NCBI RefSeq assembly: GCF_021191695.1 | Contig: NZ_JAIWPT010000015.1 | Coordinates: 1-64,000 of the forward strand | DNA length: 64,000 bases | Direction: 5' to 3' | DNA from: Proluteimonas luteida | GTDB lineage: Bacteria > Pseudomonadota > Gammaproteobacteria > Xanthomonadales > Xanthomonadaceae | Part shown: piece after piece, positions 51,359 through 62,466 of the stretch | Layout of the letters: each line of letters begins with the position of its first letter | Numbering within the stretch: the stretch's first letter is position 1 | Notes under the pieces: generated by a model | What the model was told of the DNA's origin: nothing | Seen by the model: the letters and a program-made list of their open reading frames with translations, nothing else | Databases searched by the model: none | Translations under genes and position numbers: made by a program

Positions 51359-53682
51359 GGGCCCGCCTCCCCGCGCAGGCCATCGAGATAGCGCGCACCG
51401 GCCGCGTCGACCGGCGCGCGCCGCAGGACGGCGGGCGGCGGGCGCCGAAGCGCGGTCCACAAGGCGGCACGCAGGGCCTGCCTGCAATCGTCGCAGGCCG
51501 GCTCGCGTCGCAGGGCGTCGATCGCGGCGACCAGCGCCAGCGGATCCTCGATGCGCGACGGATGCGATCGCAGCCAGGCCTCGAGGGCATCGAGGTCCGG
51601 TTCGACAGTATCGGCCCCCGCACCGGCCGTCCCCGGATCGAGCAGTGCGGTCCACGCTGCATCGAGCGCGGCGCCGTCGTCGTCGCGCACGACATCGGGC
51701 ACGCGCCGCGGCGCGATGCCGTCGCGGTCGCCGCCGAGCCGCCGCGTCGGGTCGACGGGCGGCAACTGCTGCCCGACGCGCGCCAGATAGATGCGATCGG
51801 CCTGCTGGACCTGCTTGATCAGCTCCAGCGCGCGGTTCGCGTACGGCAGCGCTTGGTCGGGCGCGGCCTGGCGCAGGTGCAGTTCGGACTGCCACATCTC
51901 GCGCAGGGCGCCGCGCAGCAGTTCGCGGGTCTTCGGGTCGAGCAGCGTCGCCGCTTCCGGCAGGTCGTGGGTATGCCCGAACTCGGCGAGCACGTCCTCG
52001 GCGCGGCCGAACACCGGCGTTCCGGCATCCGGCTCGCCGGGGCCGTGGTCATGATCATGGTCGTGATCATGGCCGCCGGCGCCCGCAGGGGCCGTCGCGC
52101 CGTCGTGCCCGTGGTCGCGAGCGTGTCCGTCCGTGTCGTGCGCGTCGTCGGAAACCGCGGGCGCATCGTCCTGCCCGTAGTCGTCGATCGGCAACGGTCT
52201 GCGCGGGGGCGGGGGCGGCGCATCGTCGGCATCGGCGGTGGGCAACGGGCGGCGGCCGCCCTCGCTCTCCTCGCCGAGGAACTGGCCATAGCGCAGCCGC
52301 AGCAGGCGCTGGTCGACGCCGATCGTGTCCGATCGCGTCGCGAACGTGTCCGCCGCCAGCCGCGGCTTCTCGCGCAGCAGCGCCTCGGCGTCGATGATGA
52401 CCTGGCGCTGGCTGCGGAAGTACGCCGGCAGCACGTCGCGCGCAAGGCCTTCGAGCCCATCGGCATCCGGCGGCGCCGGCACGGGCCAGCGCAGGATCAG
52501 GCTCGGGCTGCGCGCGCGCTGCGGCTGCGGCGCGCGGTTGTCGCCGACCTCGAGCTGGGCGACGAGATCCCCGCCTTCGGCAAGCCCCTGGGCGACCGGA
52601 TCGATCGCGATCGCGTACCGCTTCGTGCGCGCGTCGCCGTCGCCGCGCAGCGGCAGGCTGCGCTCGACGAACGTGATGTTCTCGCCCGTGCCCAGCGCCA
52701 GCGTCAGCCGCAGGGTCGCATCGGCGGCGATGCCGTGGTCGTCCTCGGCCTCGAAACGCAGATCCCAGCGACGCTGGCCGGGCGCCAGCATCGTCAGCGT
52801 GTCCGCGGGCTGCAGCACGCGGACCCGTGGCGGCCGGTCGGCGACCGCGTCGAGCCGCCACAGCCGCGCGGTCGCCTCGTCGGTGGCCGGCAGGTCGACG
52901 CCACCGACGGTCGGCACGATGCGGTACAGCGTCGAACGCGCCAGCACCTGCGTGGTCGTCCAGGACTCCCCCTCGCGGACCAGCGGCAGCGTTCCGCCAT
53001 CGTGGAAGCGCAGCGCCACGCCATCGGGCGGTGCGGAGAACCGCAGGGTCCAGCGCAACGTGCTGCCGGCCGGCGCCTGCACCGCCAGGGTTTCGGCATC
53101 GCGCGCCGGCAGGCCGGTGTAGGCCGGCGGCGCGACATGGAGGGTCGCCTCCACGATGCGCGGTGCGGCCGCGCCGGCCGCCGCGGCGGCCGTCGGGCTC
53201 GGCTGCCGGTCCTGCGGCGGGGTCGCCGGCCAGAACACCGCGAACGCGCACAGGATCGATGCGAGCGCCCACGCGATGCCGATCCAGCGCCAGGGCAGCG
53301 GCGGCGGCGCGAGCGCCTGCCGACCGGCCGGCAGGCGCGCAAGCAGGCGCGCGCGCTGCAACCGTTGCAACGGTGCCAGTTGCCGGTCGTCGGCGAACAG
53401 CAGATCGGCGCTGTCGTCCATGTCGCCGCGACCGGCATTGAGCCGGCGCAGCAGCCAGGTGCGGTCGCGGCGGCGCGCACGCTGCGCCGCGATCGCCGCG
53501 GCGATCGCGCTGCCCGTTGCCGCCAGCACCACGGCAACCCATGGCGTCCCGACCCGCAGGGCAATGGCGACGACCGCCAGCACCGCCGCGCCTGCGATCG
53601 CGGCGACACCTGCGATCGCACGCCAGCGGGCCCCGCGCAGCATCTGCCGCAACTGCGGGGCCATGTCCGCCGCGGGGCTCAC
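51355..53682 (-). CDS. Large membrane protein of the MoxR-type cluster (DUF4175-like), 775 aa, His-rich
   Basis: A GTG start at 53682 overlaps the previous stop (GTGA); an ATG six codons in is possible. Helices lie at about residues 21-42, 46-66 and 132-151. The large C-terminal region, likely periplasmic, has beta-sandwich-like stretches and, near residues 525-545, a His/Asp run (GGHDHDHDHDHGPGEP) plus HDTDGHARDHGHDG just before, potential metal-binding sites. The last ~150 residues are helical. The DUF4175 label is by general resemblance and position in the cluster. It probably acts with the MoxR, DUF58 and BatA-like proteins. Confidence 0.75.
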   Translation of the reverse strand: MSPAADMAPQLRQMLRGARWRAIAGVAAIAGAAVLAVVAIALRVGTPWVAVVLAATGSAIAAAIAAQRARRRDRTWLLRRLNAGRGDMDDSADLLFADDRQLAPLQRLQRARLLARLPAGRQALAPPPLPWRWIGIAWALASILCAFAVFWPATPPQDRQPSPTAAAAAGAAAPRIVEATLHVAPPAYTGLPARDAETLAVQAPAGSTLRWTLRFSAPPDGVALRFHDGGTLPLVREGESWTTTQVLARSTLYRIVPTVGGVDLPATDEATARLWRLDAVADRPPRVRVLQPADTLTMLAPGQRRWDLRFEAEDDHGIAADATLRLTLALGTGENITFVERSLPLRGDGDARTKRYAIAIDPVAQGLAEGGDLVAQLEVGDNRAPQPQRARSPSLILRWPVPAPPDADGLEGLARDVLPAYFRSQRQVIIDAEALLREKPRLAADTFATRSDTIGVDQRLLRLRYGQFLGEESEGGRRPLPTADADDAPPPPPRRPLPIDDYGQDDAPAVSDDAHDTDGHARDHGHDGATAPAGAGGHDHDHDHDHGPGEPDAGTPVFGRAEDVLAEFGHTHDLPEAATLLDPKTRELLRGALREMWQSELHLRQAAPDQALPYANRALELIKQVQQADRIYLARVGQQLPPVDPTRRLGGDRDGIAPRRVPDVVRDDDGAALDAAWTALLDPGTAGAGADTVEPDLDALEAWLRSHPSRIEDPLALVAAIDALRREPACDDCRQALRAALWTALRRPPPAVLRRAPVDAAGARYLDGLRGEAGP

Positions 53683-54854
53683 GACGCCACGACCCGACGA
53701 CGCGCGGTCGCCATCCAGCGCTCCAGCACGCACAGCAGCGCGATCAATGCCGCAAGCCACGGGCGCAGGTCGCGCGGGGGCTGCGCATGGCCGCGCGCGC
53801 CGGTGCCCGGCGCGTGATCGAGCGCGCGCACGCGTGCCGGTTCCGGCACTGGCTGCAGCTGCGCGCGCAGCGCACCCGGAAACGTCGGCGCCAACAGGTC
53901 CGGCATCGCGGCGGCGGTCAGCGGGCGCGCGAACTGCAGCATCCGGCCTGCCCCGAGCGGCCGGGCGAACAGCAATGGCTGCCCGGCCTCGTCGGACCAT
54001 GCCACCTGCATCGCATCACGGTCGATGCCCGTGGTCGCGGCATCGACCAGCGCGGTGCCGCCCCCTTCGATCCAGTCGATCACCGGCGGCGGCAGCGCGT
54101 CCGCGCGCAGCCAGACCAGGACGCTGCGCGTGTCGCCCGGCGGCGCCACGGATGCGTCGTCCCCCAATGCCGGCGGCGCCGCATCGTCGGGCCGCCACGC
54201 CTGCGCGGCGGCCCGCAGCCAGTTCGCGGCCGGCGCGTGCGCGGCATCGTGGCGCACCTGCAGCACCGGGGGTGCGGCGGCGGACACCCGATCCGCGGCT
54301 GCTGACCCGCCCGGCACGACACGCCAGTCGACCTGGCGCGACAGCACGATGCGCTGTGCATCAACGCCGTCGAGGACTTCCGGCACGAAGACCGTCAACC
54401 GTGCGTCCGCGGGGAGTTCGGCATCCAGCTGCCGCAGCAGGCTCGAGGGCGACGCGTCCGCCGGACCGGCATCCGCGCCGGCAGCCTGCCCGTCGTCCAG
54501 CGCCGGAAATCCCGGAAGCAGCCAGTGCAGGCGCGCCTCATCCCCGTCGGCGCGCACCGCCGCGGGATCGACACCCGGCACGACGGCGATCCAGTGGGTG
54601 CGCGCCGCTTCGCCGACCTGCACCGGTCGTGCCAGCCACAGCGCCAGCAGCGCGAGCAGCAGCAGCCGCACCAGCAGCAGCGGCCAGTCGTCGAAACGCA
54701 GCCGCCGCCTCGGCCGCGGCTGCCGGCGCAGCCAGCGCAGCGCGGCGAATGGGGTCGGCCGCTGCTCGGTGCGTCGCGCGAGATGCAGCAGCAGCGGCAC
54801 GGCCAGGGCAAGCAGCGCGGCCAGCGCACCGGGCAGGAGCAAGGCGAGGTTCAT
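53679..54854 (-). CDS. BatA-like (aerotolerance N-terminal domain) membrane protein, 391 aa
   Basis: Residues 1-80 form the BatA N-terminal domain: one helix (ALLLPGALAALLALAVPLLLHL), a basic loop RRTEQRPTPFAALRWLRRQ, then a second helix (LLLVRLLLLALLALWLAR). The remainder is a poorly conserved periplasmic part with a final helix (LAALIALLCVLERWM). No VWA MIDAS is seen. Its ATG overlaps the DUF58 stop (ATGA). In Bat-type operons such proteins hold the partner complex in the membrane. Confidence 0.85.
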   Translation of the reverse strand: MNLALLLPGALAALLALAVPLLLHLARRTEQRPTPFAALRWLRRQPRPRRRLRFDDWPLLLVRLLLLALLALWLARPVQVGEAARTHWIAVVPGVDPAAVRADGDEARLHWLLPGFPALDDGQAAGADAGPADASPSSLLRQLDAELPADARLTVFVPEVLDGVDAQRIVLSRQVDWRVVPGGSAAADRVSAAAPPVLQVRHDAAHAPAANWLRAAAQAWRPDDAAPPALGDDASVAPPGDTRSVLVWLRADALPPPVIDWIEGGGTALVDAATTGIDRDAMQVAWSDEAGQPLLFARPLGAGRMLQFARPLTAAAMPDLLAPTFPGALRAQLQPVPEPARVRALDHAPGTGARGHAQPPRDLRPWLAALIALLCVLERWMATARRRVVAS

Positions 54855-55747
54855 CGGCCGCGTCCCGGGGCCTGTGGACCGAACAGCGGCTGCAGCACCG
54901 CATCGGCCTCCGCGTCGAGCGCCGCGGACGCGAAGCGGATGCCGGCCGCGTCAAAGCGCGCACGCAGTGCGCGCTGCGCCTCGCCGAAGCGTTCCAGATA
55001 CCCGGCACGCAGCGCCGGACCATCGCCGAGCAGCGCTTCGCCGGTTTCCGGATCGACGAAGCGGCGCCCGTCGCGGAACGGGAAGTCGCGCTCCTCGACG
55101 GTCAGCAGCTGCAGGGCGACGACCTCGCGGCCGGCCGCGGCGAGCTTCTCCAGCAATGCGACCGCGTTGTCGTCGAACCAGTCGCCGATCGCCACCACCA
55201 GATCGTCGCTGCCGATGCGTTCCCACACCGGCGACAACCGCGCACCCGACGGAAACGCGCGCCCCGGCACGAGCGCCTGCAGTTGCAGGCGCAGCCGGTC
55301 GCGCTGGCGCAGCCCGCCATCGGCCGGCACGAGCCCCAGGCCGCCGTCGTGCAGGACGATCAGCCCGAAGGCATCGCCCTGCCGCAACGCGACCTCGGCG
55401 ATGCACGCGGCCAGCAGCCGCGCCGCATCGAAGCGCGACCAGTCCGGACGCGCCTCGTCGGCCTGCGCCATCGATGCGCTGGCATCGAGCAGGATCCACA
55501 GCCGCAGCGGGCTCTCGCGCTCGGCCTCGCGGACGAAGAAGCGGTCGCTGCGTCCGTACAGCTTCCAGTCGATCTGCCGCGGCTCGTCGCCGGGCTCGTA
55601 CGCGCGGTACTGGGCGAATTCCAGGCCCGCGCCACGACTGCGGCTGGCGTGCAGGCCGATCCCGCCACGCCCGGCCGCGCGCCGCGGCACGATCCGCAAG
55701 CCGGCCAGCCGGGCACGCAGCGACGGCGGAATCGGATCGGAGGTCAT
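54851..55747 (-). CDS. DUF58 protein of the MoxR-type cluster
   Basis: The 298-aa protein has the DUF58 hallmark FAQYRAYEPGDEPRQIDWKLYGR (about residues 44-66) followed by a VWA-like fold with an intact metal-site motif ILLDASASM (Asp88-x-Ser90-x-Ser92). It has no membrane segment, unlike many DUF58 proteins. DUF58 proteins pair with MoxR ATPases; the VWA part would bind client proteins or partners. It lies 10 bases after moxR and overlaps the BatA-like gene. Confidence 0.92.
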   Translation of the reverse strand: MTSDPIPPSLRARLAGLRIVPRRAAGRGGIGLHASRSRGAGLEFAQYRAYEPGDEPRQIDWKLYGRSDRFFVREAERESPLRLWILLDASASMAQADEARPDWSRFDAARLLAACIAEVALRQGDAFGLIVLHDGGLGLVPADGGLRQRDRLRLQLQALVPGRAFPSGARLSPVWERIGSDDLVVAIGDWFDDNAVALLEKLAAAGREVVALQLLTVEERDFPFRDGRRFVDPETGEALLGDGPALRAGYLERFGEAQRALRARFDAAGIRFASAALDAEADAVLQPLFGPQAPGRGR

Positions 55748-55757
55748 GCGGGGAAGA

Positions 55758-56759
55758 TCAGCCCGCGTCGAACGGCACGGCCTGCAGCAGCCCGGCGATC
55801 ACCATGTCCGGCGTCCTGCGCTCGGCCTCGGCCGCGAACGACAGCAGCAGGCGATGCCGCAGCACCGGCGCGAGCAGCGCAACCACGTCCTCGCGCGTCG
55901 CCGCGAGACGGCCGTGCAGCAGCGCGCGCGCCTTCGATGCCAGCACCAGCGACTGCCCCGCGCGCGGACCGGCGCCCCAGCGCACGTAGTCGCGCACGAC
56001 ATCGGGCGCCCCGTCGCCGGGACGCGTCGCGCGCACCAGCCGGGTGATCCAGCGCAGCAGGTCGTCGCCGACGTGGACCTCGCGCACCAGCGCCTGCAGC
56101 GCGAGCACGTCGCCGGCATGCATCACCCGCGGGACGTCGGCAGCCGCGCTGCCGGTGGTCTGCGCCAGGATCGCCTGTTCCTCGGCCTCGTCCGGATACG
56201 CCAGCGCGATGTGCAGCAGGAAGCGGTCCAGCTGTGCCTCCGGCAACGGATAGGTGCCGGCCTGCTCGATCGGGTTCTGGGTCGCCAGCACGAAGAACGG
56301 CGACGGCAGCGGGCGGGTCACGCCGGCCTGGCTGACGGTGCGTTCCTGCATCGCCTCCAGCAGCGCGGCCTGGGTCTTGGGCGGCGTACGGTTGAGCTCG
56401 TCGGCCAGCAGCAGGTTGGTGAAGACCGGGCCTTCCTGGAAACGGAAATGGCGGTGACCGGTGCCGTGGTCCTCCTCCAGCAGCTCGGTGCCGAGGATGT
56501 CGCTGGGCATCAGGTCCGGCGTGAACTGCACGCGGCGGAACTGCAGGTCCAGCGCCTGGCCCAGCGTGCGCACCAGCAGCGTCTTGCCCAGGCCGGGCAC
56601 GCCTTCGAGCAGGCAGTGCCCGCCGGCCAGCAGGCCGATCAGCAACTGCTCGACGACCGCCGCCTGGCCGACGACGGCCTGGCCGATCGCGCCGCGCAGC
56701 GCCTCCAGGCGCTCGCGCCAGGCATCGAGGTCGGCTTCGGTGGGGTTGGAAACGGTCAT
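55758..56759 (-). CDS. MoxR family AAA+ ATPase
   Basis: The 333-aa protein has Walker A GVPGLGKT (residues 53-60), Walker B LLADELNR (about 117-124), sensor 1 LATQNP, and the MoxR-specific FTPDLMPSDILGTE and PLPEAQLDRF. It is a full-length single AAA+ module with the C-terminal lid (SLVLASKARALLHGRLAATREDV). MoxR ATPases act as chaperones in assembling or activating membrane or metalloprotein complexes. It is the ATPase of the cluster whose other members are DUF58, BatA-like and large membrane proteins. Confidence 0.95.
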   Translation of the reverse strand: MTVSNPTEADLDAWRERLEALRGAIGQAVVGQAAVVEQLLIGLLAGGHCLLEGVPGLGKTLLVRTLGQALDLQFRRVQFTPDLMPSDILGTELLEEDHGTGHRHFRFQEGPVFTNLLLADELNRTPPKTQAALLEAMQERTVSQAGVTRPLPSPFFVLATQNPIEQAGTYPLPEAQLDRFLLHIALAYPDEAEEQAILAQTTGSAAADVPRVMHAGDVLALQALVREVHVGDDLLRWITRLVRATRPGDGAPDVVRDYVRWGAGPRAGQSLVLASKARALLHGRLAATREDVVALLAPVLRHRLLLSFAAEAERRTPDMVIAGLLQAVPFDAG

Positions 56760-56856: not shown

Positions 56857-57555
56857 TCATGCGGTCAGCGCGTACATGACGATGTTGACCGCGAACTTCG
56901 TGTTGTCGTCGGCGAGGAAACGCTTGTTGCGCCAGTCGTAGTCCCATTCGCAGCCATAGTCCTTGTTGCTGTAGAGCACGGCCAGGCGCCCGTCGATCTC
57001 GATGCCCTTGAGGTAGTCGTGGACCAGGTCGTCGCCCCAGCCGTTGAGCTCGAAGCTGGTCGCCGGCGGGCCGTCGGGAAAGCGGAAGAAGCTGCTGTAC
57101 AGCGGGTGGCTGTTGGGCAGTTTCTTCAGCGCGCCGGCGCCGAAGATCGCCGCCACCTGGGCCTCGAACGACTTCGCGAACAGGCCGTCGATGTCGTGGT
57201 TGCAGTCGTCGACGAACACGAAACCGCCGCTGCGCACGTAGCGCTCGAAGTTGCGCCGTTCGGCCGGATTGAACTCCACGAGCTTGTGGCCGGCGAGATA
57301 GCAGAACGGCGCGGCCAGCATCTTCGGGTCCGACAGCGCGACGACGCGCTCCTCGGGGTCGACGCGCAGGTTGGTGTAGTCGATCAGCGAGGTCAGCACG
57401 TTGGACGGCATCCGCGCATCGACGTCCCAGTCGCCCGAGTCGTAGCGCAGGCGGGTGAACCAGAAGTCGTAGCGGGCGGATTGCGCGGCGAGCGGCGGCA
57501 GCGCAAGGACCCCCGCGCCGCCGAGCATCAACTTCAGGAACTGGGCGCGGGTCAT
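56857..57555 (-). CDS. DUF4159 family exported protein, 232 aa
   Basis: The protein begins MTRAQFLKLMLGGAGVLALPPLAAQS, a Tat-like signal in which the second Arg is replaced by Ala (RAQFLK). The body is DUF4159: YDFWFTRLRYDSGDWD, FVFVDDCNHDIDGLF, PNSHPLYSSFF and DDNTKFAVNIVMYALTA. The family is a diverged glutamine amidotransferase-like fold without known activity and is typical of MoxR clusters. It lies about 100 bp before moxR and follows tldE. Confidence 0.87.
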   Translation of the reverse strand: MTRAQFLKLMLGGAGVLALPPLAAQSARYDFWFTRLRYDSGDWDVDARMPSNVLTSLIDYTNLRVDPEERVVALSDPKMLAAPFCYLAGHKLVEFNPAERRNFERYVRSGGFVFVDDCNHDIDGLFAKSFEAQVAAIFGAGALKKLPNSHPLYSSFFRFPDGPPATSFELNGWGDDLVHDYLKGIEIDGRLAVLYSNKDYGCEWDYDWRNKRFLADDNTKFAVNIVMYALTA

Positions 57556-57636: not shown

Positions 57637-58971
57637 TCATACCGCATCCGACAGCGACGTGAACGTGAAGTCCCTGAGCCGCATCGGCGGCAGCATCATC
57701 ACCATCGACGACTCGTCGCCGCCGACACGGACCGGCCTGCCGAGCTCGTCGATGTTGTTGAGCATGATCACCGGCGACTCGTTGAAGCGGAAGTTCTTCA
57801 GCGGGTACTTGATCTCGCCGTTCTCGATGTAGAAGGTGCCGTCGCGGGTCAGGCCGGTCAGCAGCACGGTCTGCGGGTCGACCATGCGGATGTACCAGGT
57901 GCGGGTGACCAGGATGCCGCGGTCGGTGCCGCGGATCAGGTCCGCGGTCGAGGCCTCGCCGCCCGACATCAGCAGGTTGCCCGGGCGGCCGACCGCGCGC
58001 TTGCCCTGCTGCTGCGCCCAGAAGCGCGAGTAGTCGAGGTTGGCGATCCTGCCGTTCTCGATGATCGCCATCTTCTCGCGCGGCAGGCCCTCGCCGTCCC
58101 ACGGCATCACCGCGGCTTCGGGATGCCAGGGGTCGGCCACGATATTGACGCGCGGATCGTAGACCTGCTCGCCGAGCTTGTTGCCGCCGCCGCGTTTGGA
58201 CAGGAAGCTGCGGCCCTCGTCGGCGGTGCGCGCATCGAAGAAGCGCATCATGAACGAGATCAGGCCCGCGGCCGCCGCGGGTTCCAGGATCACGGTGTAC
58301 TTGCCCGGCTCCAGCGCCTGCGCGTCGGCCGAATCGCTGGCCTTGCGCATCGCGATGCGCACGTCGCGGCCGGCATCGAACTCGCTGGCGTCCTTGAGGT
58401 TGCGGCCGACCCAGCCCGAACCGCGGCCGTCCTCGGTGCGCACGGTGCAGGTGTAGTTGAAACTGGTCGCCTGCTGGTAGCCGAAGTTGCCGTTGCTGTT
58501 GGCGAACGCGACGAAGCGCTTGCCGTCGTCGAGGAAGCCGGCGGCGATCAGCTGTTCCGCCCGGCATGGCCCGATCGAGCCGGCAGCCACGTTGGCGCGG
58601 AATTCCGGCGTGATCGCCGCGGTGGATTCGCTGAACGTCGGGCTGGGCCGGTACGCCTGCCTGCCGATCGCCGGCAGGAATTCCGGGTTCTCGGGCGCCA
58701 GCCGCGCAAGGTCTTCGGCACGCCTGACCACGCTCTGCAGCGAGGCATCGTCGAAGGCGTTGATGCTGGCGGTGCCGACGCGCTTGCCGAACGCGACCTG
58801 CACCGCCAGCTCGGCATTGCTGACCAGGCCGCTGGTGGACACGTTGTTGAGCGCAAAGCGGATGTTGCCGTCGACGGCGCCCGACAGGGTCGCGGTGCAT
58901 TCGTCGGCGGTCGACAGGGCCACGGTCTTCTCGAGGATCTCGCGCGCCTGGGCTTCGGTGAAGATGGTCAT
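57637..58971 (-). CDS. TldE/PmbA-type subunit of a TldD/TldE metalloprotease
   Basis: The 444-aa protein starts MTIFTEAQAREILEKTV with no signal peptide. The TldD/PmbA C-terminal domain is present (IANLDYSRFWAQQQGKRAVGRPGN, DLIRGTDRGILVTRTWYIRMVD, FYIENGEIKYPLKNFRFNESP). It lacks the HExxxH metal motif, as TldE subunits do. It should form a heterodimer with one of the adjacent TldD proteins to cleave unfolded peptides or peptide leaders. The gene order tldD-tldD-tldE is one transcription unit. Confidence 0.9.
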   Translation of the reverse strand: MTIFTEAQAREILEKTVALSTADECTATLSGAVDGNIRFALNNVSTSGLVSNAELAVQVAFGKRVGTASINAFDDASLQSVVRRAEDLARLAPENPEFLPAIGRQAYRPSPTFSESTAAITPEFRANVAAGSIGPCRAEQLIAAGFLDDGKRFVAFANSNGNFGYQQATSFNYTCTVRTEDGRGSGWVGRNLKDASEFDAGRDVRIAMRKASDSADAQALEPGKYTVILEPAAAAGLISFMMRFFDARTADEGRSFLSKRGGGNKLGEQVYDPRVNIVADPWHPEAAVMPWDGEGLPREKMAIIENGRIANLDYSRFWAQQQGKRAVGRPGNLLMSGGEASTADLIRGTDRGILVTRTWYIRMVDPQTVLLTGLTRDGTFYIENGEIKYPLKNFRFNESPVIMLNNIDELGRPVRVGGDESSMVMMLPPMRLRDFTFTSLSDAV

Positions 58972-58984
58972 GGTTCAGGGCTCC

Positions 58985-60619
58985 TTAGCCAAGCGAACGC
59001 GCGGTGTTGATGACGTTGATGCCGTTGAAACGCGCGGTCGAGGAACCGTGCGAGACCGCCGAGACCTGGCTCGGCTGGCCCTTGCCGTCGAAGAACGAGC
59101 CACCGAGGCGGTAGTCGCTTTCGTCGCAGATGGCGACGCAGGCGTTCCAGAACTCCGGCGTGCGGATCTGGTAGGCGACGTCCTCGACCATGCCGGCGAT
59201 CGCGCCGTCCTTGATCTCGTAGAACAGCTGGCCGCCGAACTGCGCGTTGTAGCGCTGCTGGTCGATCGAGAACGAGCCGTCGCCGATGATGTAGATGCCG
59301 TTCTCGACGTCCTTGATCATGTCTTCGACGCTGAGCCGCGCCTTGCCGGGCGCCAGCGAGACGTTGGGCATGCGCTGGAACTGCACGCTCGACCACGAAT
59401 CGGCGTAGCAGCAGCCGTCCGATTCGGTCTTGCCCAGGATGTGGGCCTGGTCGCGGATCGCCTGGTAGTCGACGAGCTTGCCGTCGGTGATCATGTCCCA
59501 GCGCTTGGTGGCGACGCCCTCGTCATCAAAGCCGACCACGCCGAGGCTGCCCGGCTGGGTCTTGTCCGCGAACACCGTGACCAGGTCGCTGCCGTACTGG
59601 AAGCGCTGCTCGCGCTTGTCGAGCGTGGCGAAGCTGGTGCCGGCGTAGTTGGCCTCGTAGCCGAGCACGCGGTCGAGCTCCAGCGGGTGGCCGATCGACT
59701 CGTGGATCGTCAGCCAGGTGTGCGAGGGGTCGAGCACGAGATCGTAGCGGCCGGGCTTGACCGACGGCGCGCGCAGCTTCTCCCGCGCCTGCCGGGCCGC
59801 GGCGATCGCGTCCTCGCGCATGTCGTAGGAACCGCTGTAGTTGACCACGCCGTTGGGCGAGACGACCTTGCCCGACGCCGCGCCATCGAGATATTCGTAG
59901 CCCAGCCCCATCGGCGACGACAGGCCGCTGCGGGTGCGGAACTTGCCGCTGTCCTTGTCGATCGCGGTCACCGTCATCGGTGCCCAGATCCGGTGCACGT
60001 CCTGGTCGATGTAGGAGCCGTCGGTGCTGGCGAAGTACTTCTGTTCGTTGACCAGGAACAGCGTCGAGTTGACGAAACTGGCGCCCGCCTCCAGCGCCGC
60101 GGCGTTGACGCCAAGCAGCAGCTCCACTTTCTCCTCGACCGGGACTTCCATGCCGTTCTTGACGATCGGCGTCCGCCAGGAGACCTCGCCGACGCCGGTG
60201 ACCGGCGCCAGCTGTACCGGCGCGGTCTGGATCTTCGCGTTCGCCTGCGCGATCGCCACCGCCTGGCGCGCGGCCTCGGCCACGCCCTGCTCGGTCAGCG
60301 TGTTGGTCGCGGCGAAGCCCCAGGCGCCGCCGGCGACCACGCGTACGCCGACGCCCGTCGATTCGGTGCTGACGACGTTCTGCACCTTGTCCTCGCGGGT
60401 CATGACGAACTGGCGCAGGTAGCGGCCGACGCGCACGTCGCAGTAACTGGCGCCGGCCGCGGTCGCGGCGTTGAGGCCGGCGTCGGCCAGCCGCTTCTTG
60501 AAGCCGACGTCGAGCGTCGACAGCAGTTGTTCGGCGGCGATGACCCTGCCGAACACGGCAGGCAGCAGCAGGCCGCCCGCGCCGACACCAGCGAGGGCGA
60601 GGAAGTCGCGTCTAAGCAA
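58985..60619 (-). CDS. TldD-type metalloprotease with Tat signal, copy 1
   Basis: A TTG start at 60619 is preferred: GGGAGAG precedes it by five bases and the product then begins with the twin-arginine motif (LRRDFLALAGVGAGGLLLPAVF), matching the paralog's N terminus. A start at the ATG at 60688 is the alternative. The metal motif HExxGH is in TIHESIGHPLELD. The body matches TldD throughout. The Tat signal predicts export to the periplasm, unlike the cytoplasmic E. coli protein. It lies 13 bases upstream of tldE. Confidence 0.9.
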   Translation of the reverse strand: MLRRDFLALAGVGAGGLLLPAVFGRVIAAEQLLSTLDVGFKKRLADAGLNAATAAGASYCDVRVGRYLRQFVMTREDKVQNVVSTESTGVGVRVVAGGAWGFAATNTLTEQGVAEAARQAVAIAQANAKIQTAPVQLAPVTGVGEVSWRTPIVKNGMEVPVEEKVELLLGVNAAALEAGASFVNSTLFLVNEQKYFASTDGSYIDQDVHRIWAPMTVTAIDKDSGKFRTRSGLSSPMGLGYEYLDGAASGKVVSPNGVVNYSGSYDMREDAIAAARQAREKLRAPSVKPGRYDLVLDPSHTWLTIHESIGHPLELDRVLGYEANYAGTSFATLDKREQRFQYGSDLVTVFADKTQPGSLGVVGFDDEGVATKRWDMITDGKLVDYQAIRDQAHILGKTESDGCCYADSWSSVQFQRMPNVSLAPGKARLSVEDMIKDVENGIYIIGDGSFSIDQQRYNAQFGGQLFYEIKDGAIAGMVEDVAYQIRTPEFWNACVAICDESDYRLGGSFFDGKGQPSQVSAVSHGSSTARFNGINVINTARSLG

Positions 60620-60785
60620 GGGAGCTCTCCCGGAACGGGTCCGCAGCGGCGTTCGCCGTGGACGGGGTTGGCAAGGGTGGCATCGCATCCTGCGGAGCCC
60701 TCCCGATTCTCGACGCGGCCGCGGCGCAGCGTCCAGTGACTTTTGGCATAGAGATCACCCGGGATGTCTCAATCCAGCAAATCCC

Positions 60786-60811
60786 GTCATTCCCGCGAAA
60801 GCGGGAATGAC
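60786..60811. repeat. Palindromic repeat GTCATTCCCGC-GAAA-GCGGGAATGAC
   Basis: An 11-bp perfect stem with a GAAA loop (60786-60811), a widely dispersed palindrome in proteobacterial genomes. It lies in the 215-bp gap between the two tldD genes, just downstream of the copy-2 stop codon, and could attenuate read-through. Confidence 0.85.
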
Positions 60812-60834
60812 GGAGTTAGAAATCTCTGCTCTGG

Positions 60835-62466
60835 TCACAGATTCCGGGCGGTATTGATGATGTTGATCCCATCGAACCGCGTCGTGGCCGATCCGTGCGA
60901 CACCGCCGAGACCTGGCTGGGCTGGCCCTTGCCGTCGAAGAACGAGCCGCCGAGGCGGAAGTCGCGCGCGTCGCAGATCGCGCTGCAGGCATTCCAGAAT
61001 TCCGGCGTGCGGATCTGGTAGGCGGCATCCTCGACCATGCCGGCGATCTCGCCGTTGCGGATCTCGTAGTACAGCTGGCCGCCGAACTGGGCGTTGTAGC
61101 GCTGCTGGTCGATCGAGTACGAACCGCGGCCGTGGATGTACAGGCCGCGCTCGACGCCGGCGATCATCTCCTTCACCGTCAGCGGCGTACGGCCCGGCGC
61201 CAGCGACACGTTGGGCATGCGCTGGAACTGCACGCTCGACCACGAATCGGCGTAGCTGCAGCCGTCGGACTCGGTCTTGCCGAGGATATGGGCCTGGTCG
61301 CGCGTGGCCTGGTAGTCGACGAGGATGCCATCGCGCACCAGGTCCCAGCGCCTGGTCGCCACGCCCTCGTCATCGAAGCCGACCGCGCCGAGGCTGCCCG
61401 GCTGGGTCTTGTCGGCGAAGAAGTCGACGATGTCGCTGCCCCAGCGGAAGCCCGCCTCGCGCTTGTCGAGCGTGGCGAAGCTGGTGCCGGCGTAGTTGGC
61501 CTCGTAGCCGAGCACGCGGTCGAGCTCCAGCGGATGGCCGACGTTCTCGTGGATCGTCAGGAACAGGTTCGACGGATCGAGCACCAGGTCGTAGCGGCCG
61601 GGCGTCACCGACGGCGCGCGCAGCTTCTCGCGTGCCTGCCCGGCGGCGGCGACCGCGTCCTCGCGCATGTCGTAGGCCTGGCCGTAGGCGACGACGCCAC
61701 CGGGCAGTTCGAAGCGCTGCGCCGGATCCGGCGTCAGGTATTCGTAGCCCAGGCCCATCGGCGCCGACAGTCCGTCGCGCGTGCGGAATTTTCCGCTGGC
61801 CTTGTCCACCGCGGTCACGGTGAACGGCGCCCAGATCCGGTGCACGTCCTGGTCGATGTAGGAGCCGTCGGTGCTGGCGAAGTACTTCTGTTCGTTGACC
61901 AGGAACAGCCGCGAGCTGACGAAATCGGCACCTGCGGCGGTCGCCGCGGCGTTGACGTCCATCAGCAGCGCGACCTTTTCCTCCAGCGGCACGGCCATGC
62001 CGTTGCGACGCACCGGCGTCGCCCACGTCACCTCGCCGACGCCCTGCACCGGGGCCAGGCGGACCGGCGCGGTCTGGATGCGCGCGTTGGCCCTGGCGAT
62101 CGCCAGCGCCTGGCGCGTGGCCTCGGCGATGCCGTCGGGATCGAGCCGGCGGGTCGCGGCGAAACCCCAGGCGCCATCGGCGATCACCCGGATGCCGACG
62201 CCGGTCGATTCCTCGTTGACGACGTTCTCGACCTTGTCCTCGCGCGTCATCACGAACTGCCGCAGGTAGCGGCCGATGCGCACGTCGCAGTAGCTGGCGC
62301 CGCCGCCGGTCGCGGCCTGCAGCGCGACATCGGCCAGGCGCTTCTTCAGCGCGACGTCGAGCGTTGAGACCAGCTCCTCGGCGGCGATTGCGCGGCCGAT
62401 GCCGCCGGGCAGCAGCAGGCTGCCGAGCCCGACGCCGCCCCAGGCCAGGAATTCGCGTCGCTGCAT
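60835..62466 (-). CDS. TldD-type metalloprotease with Tat signal, copy 2
   Basis: The 543-aa protein starts MQRREFLAWGGVGLGSLLLPGGIGRAIAA, a clear twin-arginine signal; GGAGGA lies a few bases before the ATG at 62466. The metal motif is HENVGH in TIHENVGHPLELD. It is closely similar to copy 1 over its full length (for example YFASTDGSYIDQDVHRIWAP in both), so the two are a tandem duplication. Differences lie mostly in the N-terminal half. It should form a dimer with TldE or with copy 1 in the periplasm. Confidence 0.93.
   Translation of the reverse strand: MQRREFLAWGGVGLGSLLLPGGIGRAIAAEELVSTLDVALKKRLADVALQAATGGGASYCDVRIGRYLRQFVMTREDKVENVVNEESTGVGIRVIADGAWGFAATRRLDPDGIAEATRQALAIARANARIQTAPVRLAPVQGVGEVTWATPVRRNGMAVPLEEKVALLMDVNAAATAAGADFVSSRLFLVNEQKYFASTDGSYIDQDVHRIWAPFTVTAVDKASGKFRTRDGLSAPMGLGYEYLTPDPAQRFELPGGVVAYGQAYDMREDAVAAAGQAREKLRAPSVTPGRYDLVLDPSNLFLTIHENVGHPLELDRVLGYEANYAGTSFATLDKREAGFRWGSDIVDFFADKTQPGSLGAVGFDDEGVATRRWDLVRDGILVDYQATRDQAHILGKTESDGCSYADSWSSVQFQRMPNVSLAPGRTPLTVKEMIAGVERGLYIHGRGSYSIDQQRYNAQFGGQLYYEIRNGEIAGMVEDAAYQIRTPEFWNACSAICDARDFRLGGSFFDGKGQPSQVSAVSHGSATTRFDGINIINTARNL

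Follow-up and report, generated by a model that had tools for sequence, protein, structure and literature searches.

TldD/TldE has been studied as an intracellular peptidase of microcin and unfolded-peptide processing. According to the available excerpt of PMC5810440, the Escherichia coli pair (TldD and TldE, the latter also named PmbA; PDB 5NJ5) is active only with both subunits, the metal being held by TldD; the interface is larger in the heterodimer than in the TldE homodimer, and the TldD homodimer is unstable. Here we describe a TldD/TldE locus with two TldD paralogs (D1 and D2) and one TldE, situated in a window of 64,000 nucleotides (nt) of Proluteimonas luteida, the window being the whole stretch of DNA analysed. 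The proteins share with the E. coli pair the same three Pfam domains and the restriction of the HExxxH motif to TldD, whereas the TldDs of the window carry a twin-arginine translocation (Tat) signal, have an Asp where E. coli has the third metal ligand Cys454, show six additional residues behind HExxxH when aligned, and adjoin TldE in an operon with genes for DUF4159, MoxR, DUF58 and BatA proteins. Judged from the sequences, the metallopeptidase TldD probably folds with TldE in the cytoplasm and is exported together with it through Tat, TldE being carried along as a hitchhiker.

Both D1 and D2 begin with M-x-R-R-x-F-L, followed by a hydrophobic core and an end in IAAE. The features expected of a Tat substrate (an S/T-R-R-x-F-L-K-like motif, a hydrophobic core, and a small-residue cleavage site) are thus present in both, D1 departing from the consensus by a Leu at the S/T position. 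The original prediction had placed two TldD paralogs with twin-arginine signals here, and it is borne out by the N termini given in Table 1. Two starts come into question for D1, namely a TTG at 60619, preceded by a GGGAGAG stretch, and a longer ATG frame from 60688. Since a start codon is found at most four residues before the arginine pair in 190 of 190 Tat-type TldDs (GTG in 75, TTG in 61, ATG in 54), we take the TTG as the start. Of these 190 proteins, those of the window included, 188 have the motif RRxF (168 of all have RRxFL) and two have RRxV, and in an alignment of 30 TldDs (D1 and D2 of the window and 28 further D1s) the residues R3, R4, F6, L7, A28, A29 and E30 are invariant. A Tat translocase is encoded in the genome of the window (one TatC match, E 2.4e-68). 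Because signals, start codons and cleavage-site residues are all conserved, the predicted export of both TldDs via Tat is strongly supported.

The occurrence of signals among relatives was assessed by a Tat rule of our own, not a published predictor, which was applied identically to TldD and TldE in two sets of loci; the signal was not a selection criterion for either set. Set 1 was obtained through TldE and consists of the 80 best among 549 relatives, each of the Xanthomonadaceae type, the closest TldE records belonging to Luteimonas and other Lysobacteraceae (93-95% identity). Set 2 comprises 28 loci found through TldD, 6 from the family of the window and 22 from other families, some of which belong to a second class of Pseudomonadota. 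The sets overlap in two loci (L125 = L021 and L150 = L056), such that 3 TldD rows and 2 TldE rows are counted twice. A Tat signal is called in 150 of the 153 TldD rows of set 1, the other three (L024, L054, L069) being cut by contig ends, and in all 38 rows of set 2; together with the two TldDs of the window, 190 of 190 untruncated operon TldDs carry the signal. Four further rows count as truncated: L003, a cut locus of the window genome's own canonical gene, and L126-L128, whose alignment (around 30% identity) breaks off before the N terminus and thus lies outside the reach of the rule; reading the N termini of these three showed no arginine-pair signal.

TldE is called without a signal in 79 of the 80 loci of set 1 and in 29 of 29 cases in set 2; the exception, L024, was flagged because of an upstream in-frame start codon. 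Within the window, the N terminus of TldE (MTIFTEAQAREIL) is already its domain, so that the signal-less TldE of the original prediction is confirmed and found to be the rule among its relatives. The gap from D1 to TldE amounts to 13 bases, and TldE starts 10-50 nt behind TldD in 75/80 (set 1) and 26/29 (set 2) cases. Among the 28 loci located through TldD, TldE was found in 27, the last one (L139) ending with its contig. The pattern of hitchhiker complexes, i.e., a signal on one partner and the gene of the other partner alongside, is accordingly present in TldD/TldE. Neither protein carries a signal in the outgroup loci L124, L129 and L130 (by the rule) and L152 (by reading).

If the N termini were not used for export, D1, D2 and TldE would all be cytoplasmic. 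E. coli TldD/TldE are treated as cytoplasmic, which counts for this explanation. So does a Stenotrophomonas paper (PMC7688217), whose available excerpt refers to TldD proteins as inhibitors of gyrase. However, the 190 of 190 untruncated TldDs contrast with only 34 of 2945 other stop-to-stop frames of at least 250 amino acids (aa), many of them not genes, that satisfy the same rule, and the canonical TldD encoded in this genome lacks an N-terminal arginine pair (its extended frame was scored as hydrophobic), so that we regard a purely cytoplasmic location as highly improbable. This canonical TldD, with HEAVGH and GVCGKDGQ, belongs to a separate TldD/PmbA pair on contig C49. PF01523 has 3 to 6 matches in each of 40 genomes that match D1 at 1e-60 (29 of them examined for the signal); where the operon was read, this number, judged by counts, is in most cases two higher than that of the genes in the operon itself. 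With three matches, G121 may lack the canonical pair, and the three matches of G483 leave out one gene.

If activity needs both subunits here as well, TldD must meet TldE somewhere, and as no exit route is seen for TldE but that of TldD, the folded pair would probably be exported together. Hitchhiking of TldE is the best fit to the sequences, because a signal-less TldE is kept beside a Tat-type TldD (27/28) and activity in E. coli needs both subunits. Concerning the Tat-hitchhiker model of the original prediction, Tat export of both TldDs is thus upheld by conserved signals, starts and cleavage residues, whereas for the accompanying export of TldE we go as far as calling it the best-fitting account.

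Alternatively, the TldDs alone might be exported, as homodimers or as D1-D2 heterodimers, and TldE might stay inside, where it would act as a folding partner, an inhibitor or a retention factor that leaves TldD before export. The lack of a signal on TldE in the loci examined agrees with such an arrangement. A homodimer of Sulfolobus TldD is reported to be active (cited in the available excerpt of PMC5810440), which implies that TldE need not travel. Furthermore, 73 of the 80 Xanthomonadaceae loci have a single TldE for two TldDs, which makes a pairing of D1 with D2 possible, and the evolutionary rates of D1 and D2 covary (see below). On the other hand, set 2 contains one TldD and one TldE in 16 of 28 loci, one locus of the order D-E-D-E (L121), and one locus with one TldD and two TldEs (L137, genome G1120), an inversion of the usual 2:1 ratio of TldD to TldE; L121 and L137 would fit a pairing of D with E. 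E. coli TldD/TldE needs both subunits, with an unstable TldD homodimer, and a cytoplasmic TldE would be without evident use beside a separate canonical pair, as is present in the window genome. We consider it unlikely that the TldDs leave alone while TldE stays inside in one of these roles.

Beside the active Sulfolobus homodimer and the sharing of one TldE by two TldDs, the following observations limit the case for joint export of TldD and TldE. Rate covariation over 70 loci (partial r beyond MoxR and DUF58, relatedness being controlled through these two proteins only) reaches 0.56 for TldE and D1 and 0.48 for TldE and D2, compared to 0.15 for TldE and DUF4159; but the values for D2 and DUF4159 (0.50) and for D1 and D2 (0.47) are as high as those between TldD and TldE, and given the limited control for relatedness, the covariation lends weak support. 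An AlphaFold model of D1 (30 sequences) had a mean predicted local distance difference test score (pLDDT) of 48, too poor for use, and was dropped. Cysteine content, considered as a sign of export, was likewise discarded, as it does not differ between the TldEs of Tat loci (2.94, 108 proteins) and others (3.0, seven proteins, including L024 and L054, whose operons are in fact of the Tat type with a cut TldD). Finally, the DUF4159 protein of the window has one arginine where the TldDs have two, and those of L121, L141 and L143 have no N-terminal extension.

Under joint export, D1 or D2 would bind the metal by the two His of HExxxH and the Asp in place of Cys454, and would pair in the cytoplasm with TldE as the inactive subunit; the folded pair would then cross the inner membrane through Tat on the signal of TldD, which would probably be cleaved near the conserved IAA. 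Outside, TldD-TldE and the DUF4159 protein would jointly trim peptides or unfolded chains, and MoxR, DUF58 and BatA would act at the inner membrane. The signal might instead serve as an uncleaved anchor: TldD, inserted by Tat and with TldE bound to it, would remain at the inner membrane's outer face, next to BatA and DUF58. Such an arrangement shares the hitchhiker step with the release of a cleaved pair and differs from it in the final location, such that the probabilities of the two overlap. It is in line with the membrane proteins encoded in the operon and with the fact that some Tat substrates remain in the membrane (PMC10924467, in its available excerpt); yet the hydrophobic stretch is short and ends, as in cleaved signals, in a small-residue site, the A28, A29 and E30 found invariant in 30 TldDs. 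An anchored pair thus seems rather unlikely, although it deserves some weight.

Two features of this locus go beyond the original prediction: the replacement of a Cys by an Asp as metal ligand, and the wider operon. The HExxxH motif is present in 201 of 201 TldD rows and in none of 115 TldE rows, and in D1 and D2 it aligns with the HEAVGH of E. coli. Cys454 of E. coli aligns in both with Asp511, within the motif FFDGKGQ, so that the Cys third ligand of the family is absent from the TldDs of the window. However, membership of the family does not strictly depend on Cys, since by sequence comparison Asp is able to replace it in some TldD members, among which Gemmatimonas is named (PMC5810440, in the excerpt available). 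Among the 190 Tat-bearing TldDs, L145 alone has Cys at this position, the other 189 having Asp. Of the 11 rows that lack a Tat call, eight have Cys (L001 and L003, both the genome's own canonical gene, L124, and L126-L130) and three Asp, namely the contig-cut genes of Tat operons in L024, L054 and L069. Cys is also the third ligand in L152.

In a quick tree, the 49 rows with both Tat signal and Asp form one clade, with a Shimodaira-Hasegawa-like approximate likelihood ratio test (SH-aLRT) value of 97, whereas L145 falls beside L152 and L124, both of which lack a signal (SH-aLRT 98), long branches making this place unsure. L145 (genome G483, minus strand, approximately 3107-1521 and 1491-163) consists of a Tat-type TldD with a Cys ligand and a TldE without signal; its contig ends 162 bases behind TldE, such that the absence of DUF4159 is uninformative there. 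As L145 groups with TldDs lacking a signal, two gains of the signal, each on TldD alone, and one change to Asp would be the shortest account; a single gain with later losses is possible. We infer a link between the Asp ligand and export, as a thiolate could be oxidized in the envelope and an Asp could not. A broader scenario, conceivable but in our judgement short of probable, is that TldD/TldE left the cytoplasm once in a clade that extends across several families of Pseudomonadota, and apparently again elsewhere, and became in the large clade, with its oxidation-resistant Asp ligand, a dedicated machine for peptide trimming or quality control together with DUF4159, MoxR, DUF58 and BatA.

The genes, all on the minus strand, follow each other in the order D2, palindrome, D1, TldE, DUF4159, MoxR, DUF58 and BatA (Table 1), and TldD and TldE form an operon with the four genes behind them. 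PF01523, PF19290 and PF19289 each score above the curated cut-off in D1, D2 and TldE, and past the signal, D1 and D2 agree at 401 of the 515 positions that align. The palindrome that separates D2 from D1 may have a role in attenuation or stabilization of the transcript. Just past the operon lies an aldo/keto reductase (49303-48350, minus strand; PF00248, E 2.7e-28) with a Tat-type start of its own (MPSRRDCLKLTLGAGLSLALPSAALLAA).

Table 1. Positions of the operon genes and their features within the window (a slash marks the predicted cleavage point).
Feature	Position	Strand	Basis
TldD paralog 2 (D2), 543 aa, ATG start	60835..62466	-	PF01523/PF19290/PF19289 above cut-off; translation
D2 Tat signal, MQRREFLAWGG...GRAIAA/E, around 29 residues	62380..62466	-	direct reading; cleavage point predicted
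D2 HExxxH motif (HENVGH)	61534..61551	-	aligned to E. coli HEAVGH
D2 Asp511, aligned with the third metal ligand of E. coli TldD, Cys454	60934..60936	-	alignment
Repetitive extragenic palindromic (REP)-like palindrome between D2 and D1, CGTCATTCCCGC...GCGGGAATGACG	60785..60812	.	sequence reading
TldD paralog 1 (D1), 544 aa, TTG start	58985..60619	-	Pfam; start-codon comparison
D1 Tat signal, (M)LRRDFLALAG...GRVIAA/E, around 29 residues	60533..60619	-	reading and alignment; cleavage point predicted
D1 HExxxH motif (HESIGH)	59687..59704	-	aligned to E. coli HEAVGH
D1 Asp511, likewise aligned with Cys454 of E. coli TldD	59087..59089	-	alignment
TldE (PmbA-like), 444 aa, ATG start, without signal and without HExxxH	57637..58971	-	Pfam; alignment
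DUF4159 protein, Tat-like N terminus with one arginine (MTRAQFLKLMLGG)	56857..57555	-	PF13709
MoxR-type AAA+ ATPase	55758..56759	-	PF07726
DUF58 protein	54851..55747	-	PF01882
BatA-type membrane protein, N-terminal double-transmembrane domain	53679..54854	-	PF07584, TIGR02226

The DUF4159 proteins are uneven in their N termini, for which reason the idea that the whole operon encodes Tat substrates was rejected: 21 of 79 Xanthomonadaceae rows have a Tat signal, 51 a hydrophobic stretch and 7 neither, whereas the 26 other rows comprise 12 with a Tat signal, 11 with a hydrophobic stretch, one with neither and two that are cut. The arginine pair is undercounted here, as the 7 Xanthomonadaceae rows scored as having neither do carry it together with a hydrophobic stretch, with no ATG, GTG or TTG in range. 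The proteins of L121, L141 and L143 begin within the domain, and may either stay inside or themselves ride on a partner. An AlphaFold model of DUF4159 (mean pLDDT 77.5) has a single PDB match at E <=0.001, the Haliangium protein 4i66 (E 4.1e-14), the next matches being weak (gamma-glutamyl hydrolase, E 0.013). No paper on DUF4159 was found in the open-licence PMC literature.

TldDs of the Tat type are common near the window and patchy elsewhere. Counting matches to D1 at E <=1e-60, the window's own genome included where drawn, 29/150 genomes of its order (the window's own and 17 others examined for the signal) and 4/370 of its class have a match. The figures are 2/387 for another class, 4/118, 2/120 and 1/80 for three other orders, and 1/2 for one further small sample. 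In a sample of the phylum, 14/397 genomes match; one of them (G166) lacks the signal, and of the remaining 13, nine were examined. Both matches in the order of G166 (2/121 genomes) are without signal. A further 13 genomes of the phylum sample had E above 1e-60, and three of these were fetched (L126-L128).

No relevant paper pairing TldD with a twin-arginine or Tat signal was found in the open-licence PMC literature, where the search returned one unrelated paper, and broader searches (PmbA, peptidase U62/modulator of DNA gyrase, TldD in exoproteomes) gave nothing relevant among the matches listed. Should joint export be true, this branch with its rebuilt metal site would represent a second compartment for TldD/TldE, and a peptidase would be added to the known Tat hitchhiker complexes. 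It would also offer a testable reason for the change of the ligand from Cys to Asp, and a lead on the targets of MoxR/DUF58/BatA gene sets.

The proteins of the window fall far short of the canonical NCBIfam equivalogs, scoring 107 and 115 bits against a cut-off of 635, and 69 and 76 against one of 513. The nearest outgroups (L129 of Mycobacterium, L130 of Nonomuraea, L124 and L152; 41-42% identity) likewise possess a D-E pair, whereas they have a signal on neither protein, a Cys as third ligand, and no DUF4159 match in the stretches examined. In Stenotrophomonas maltophilia, an operon described as uncharacterized (NIPOLPBK_01784-01792) comprises two TldDs, a putative protease, a MoxR-like ATPase, a membrane protein and three hypothetical proteins, some of its genes being lower in biofilm in all seven isolates (PMC7688217, in the excerpt available); from its gene content, we infer that it is the same operon. 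That excerpt cites TldD as a gyrase inhibitor and mentions no export signal; export of TldD would contradict this reading of the Stenotrophomonas genes, which would have to change. The closest parallel in the distribution of signals is found in the Tat hitchhiker complexes, i.e., the Ni-Fe hydrogenases, the formate dehydrogenases and PaoABC (for the latter, see the available excerpt of PMC4273604), which likewise have a twin-arginine signal on one subunit and none on its partner. Those complexes, however, are cofactor-containing redox enzymes with reported co-export, whereas the pair in the window would be a peptidase, and its co-export is proposed here from the arrangement of signals and genes.

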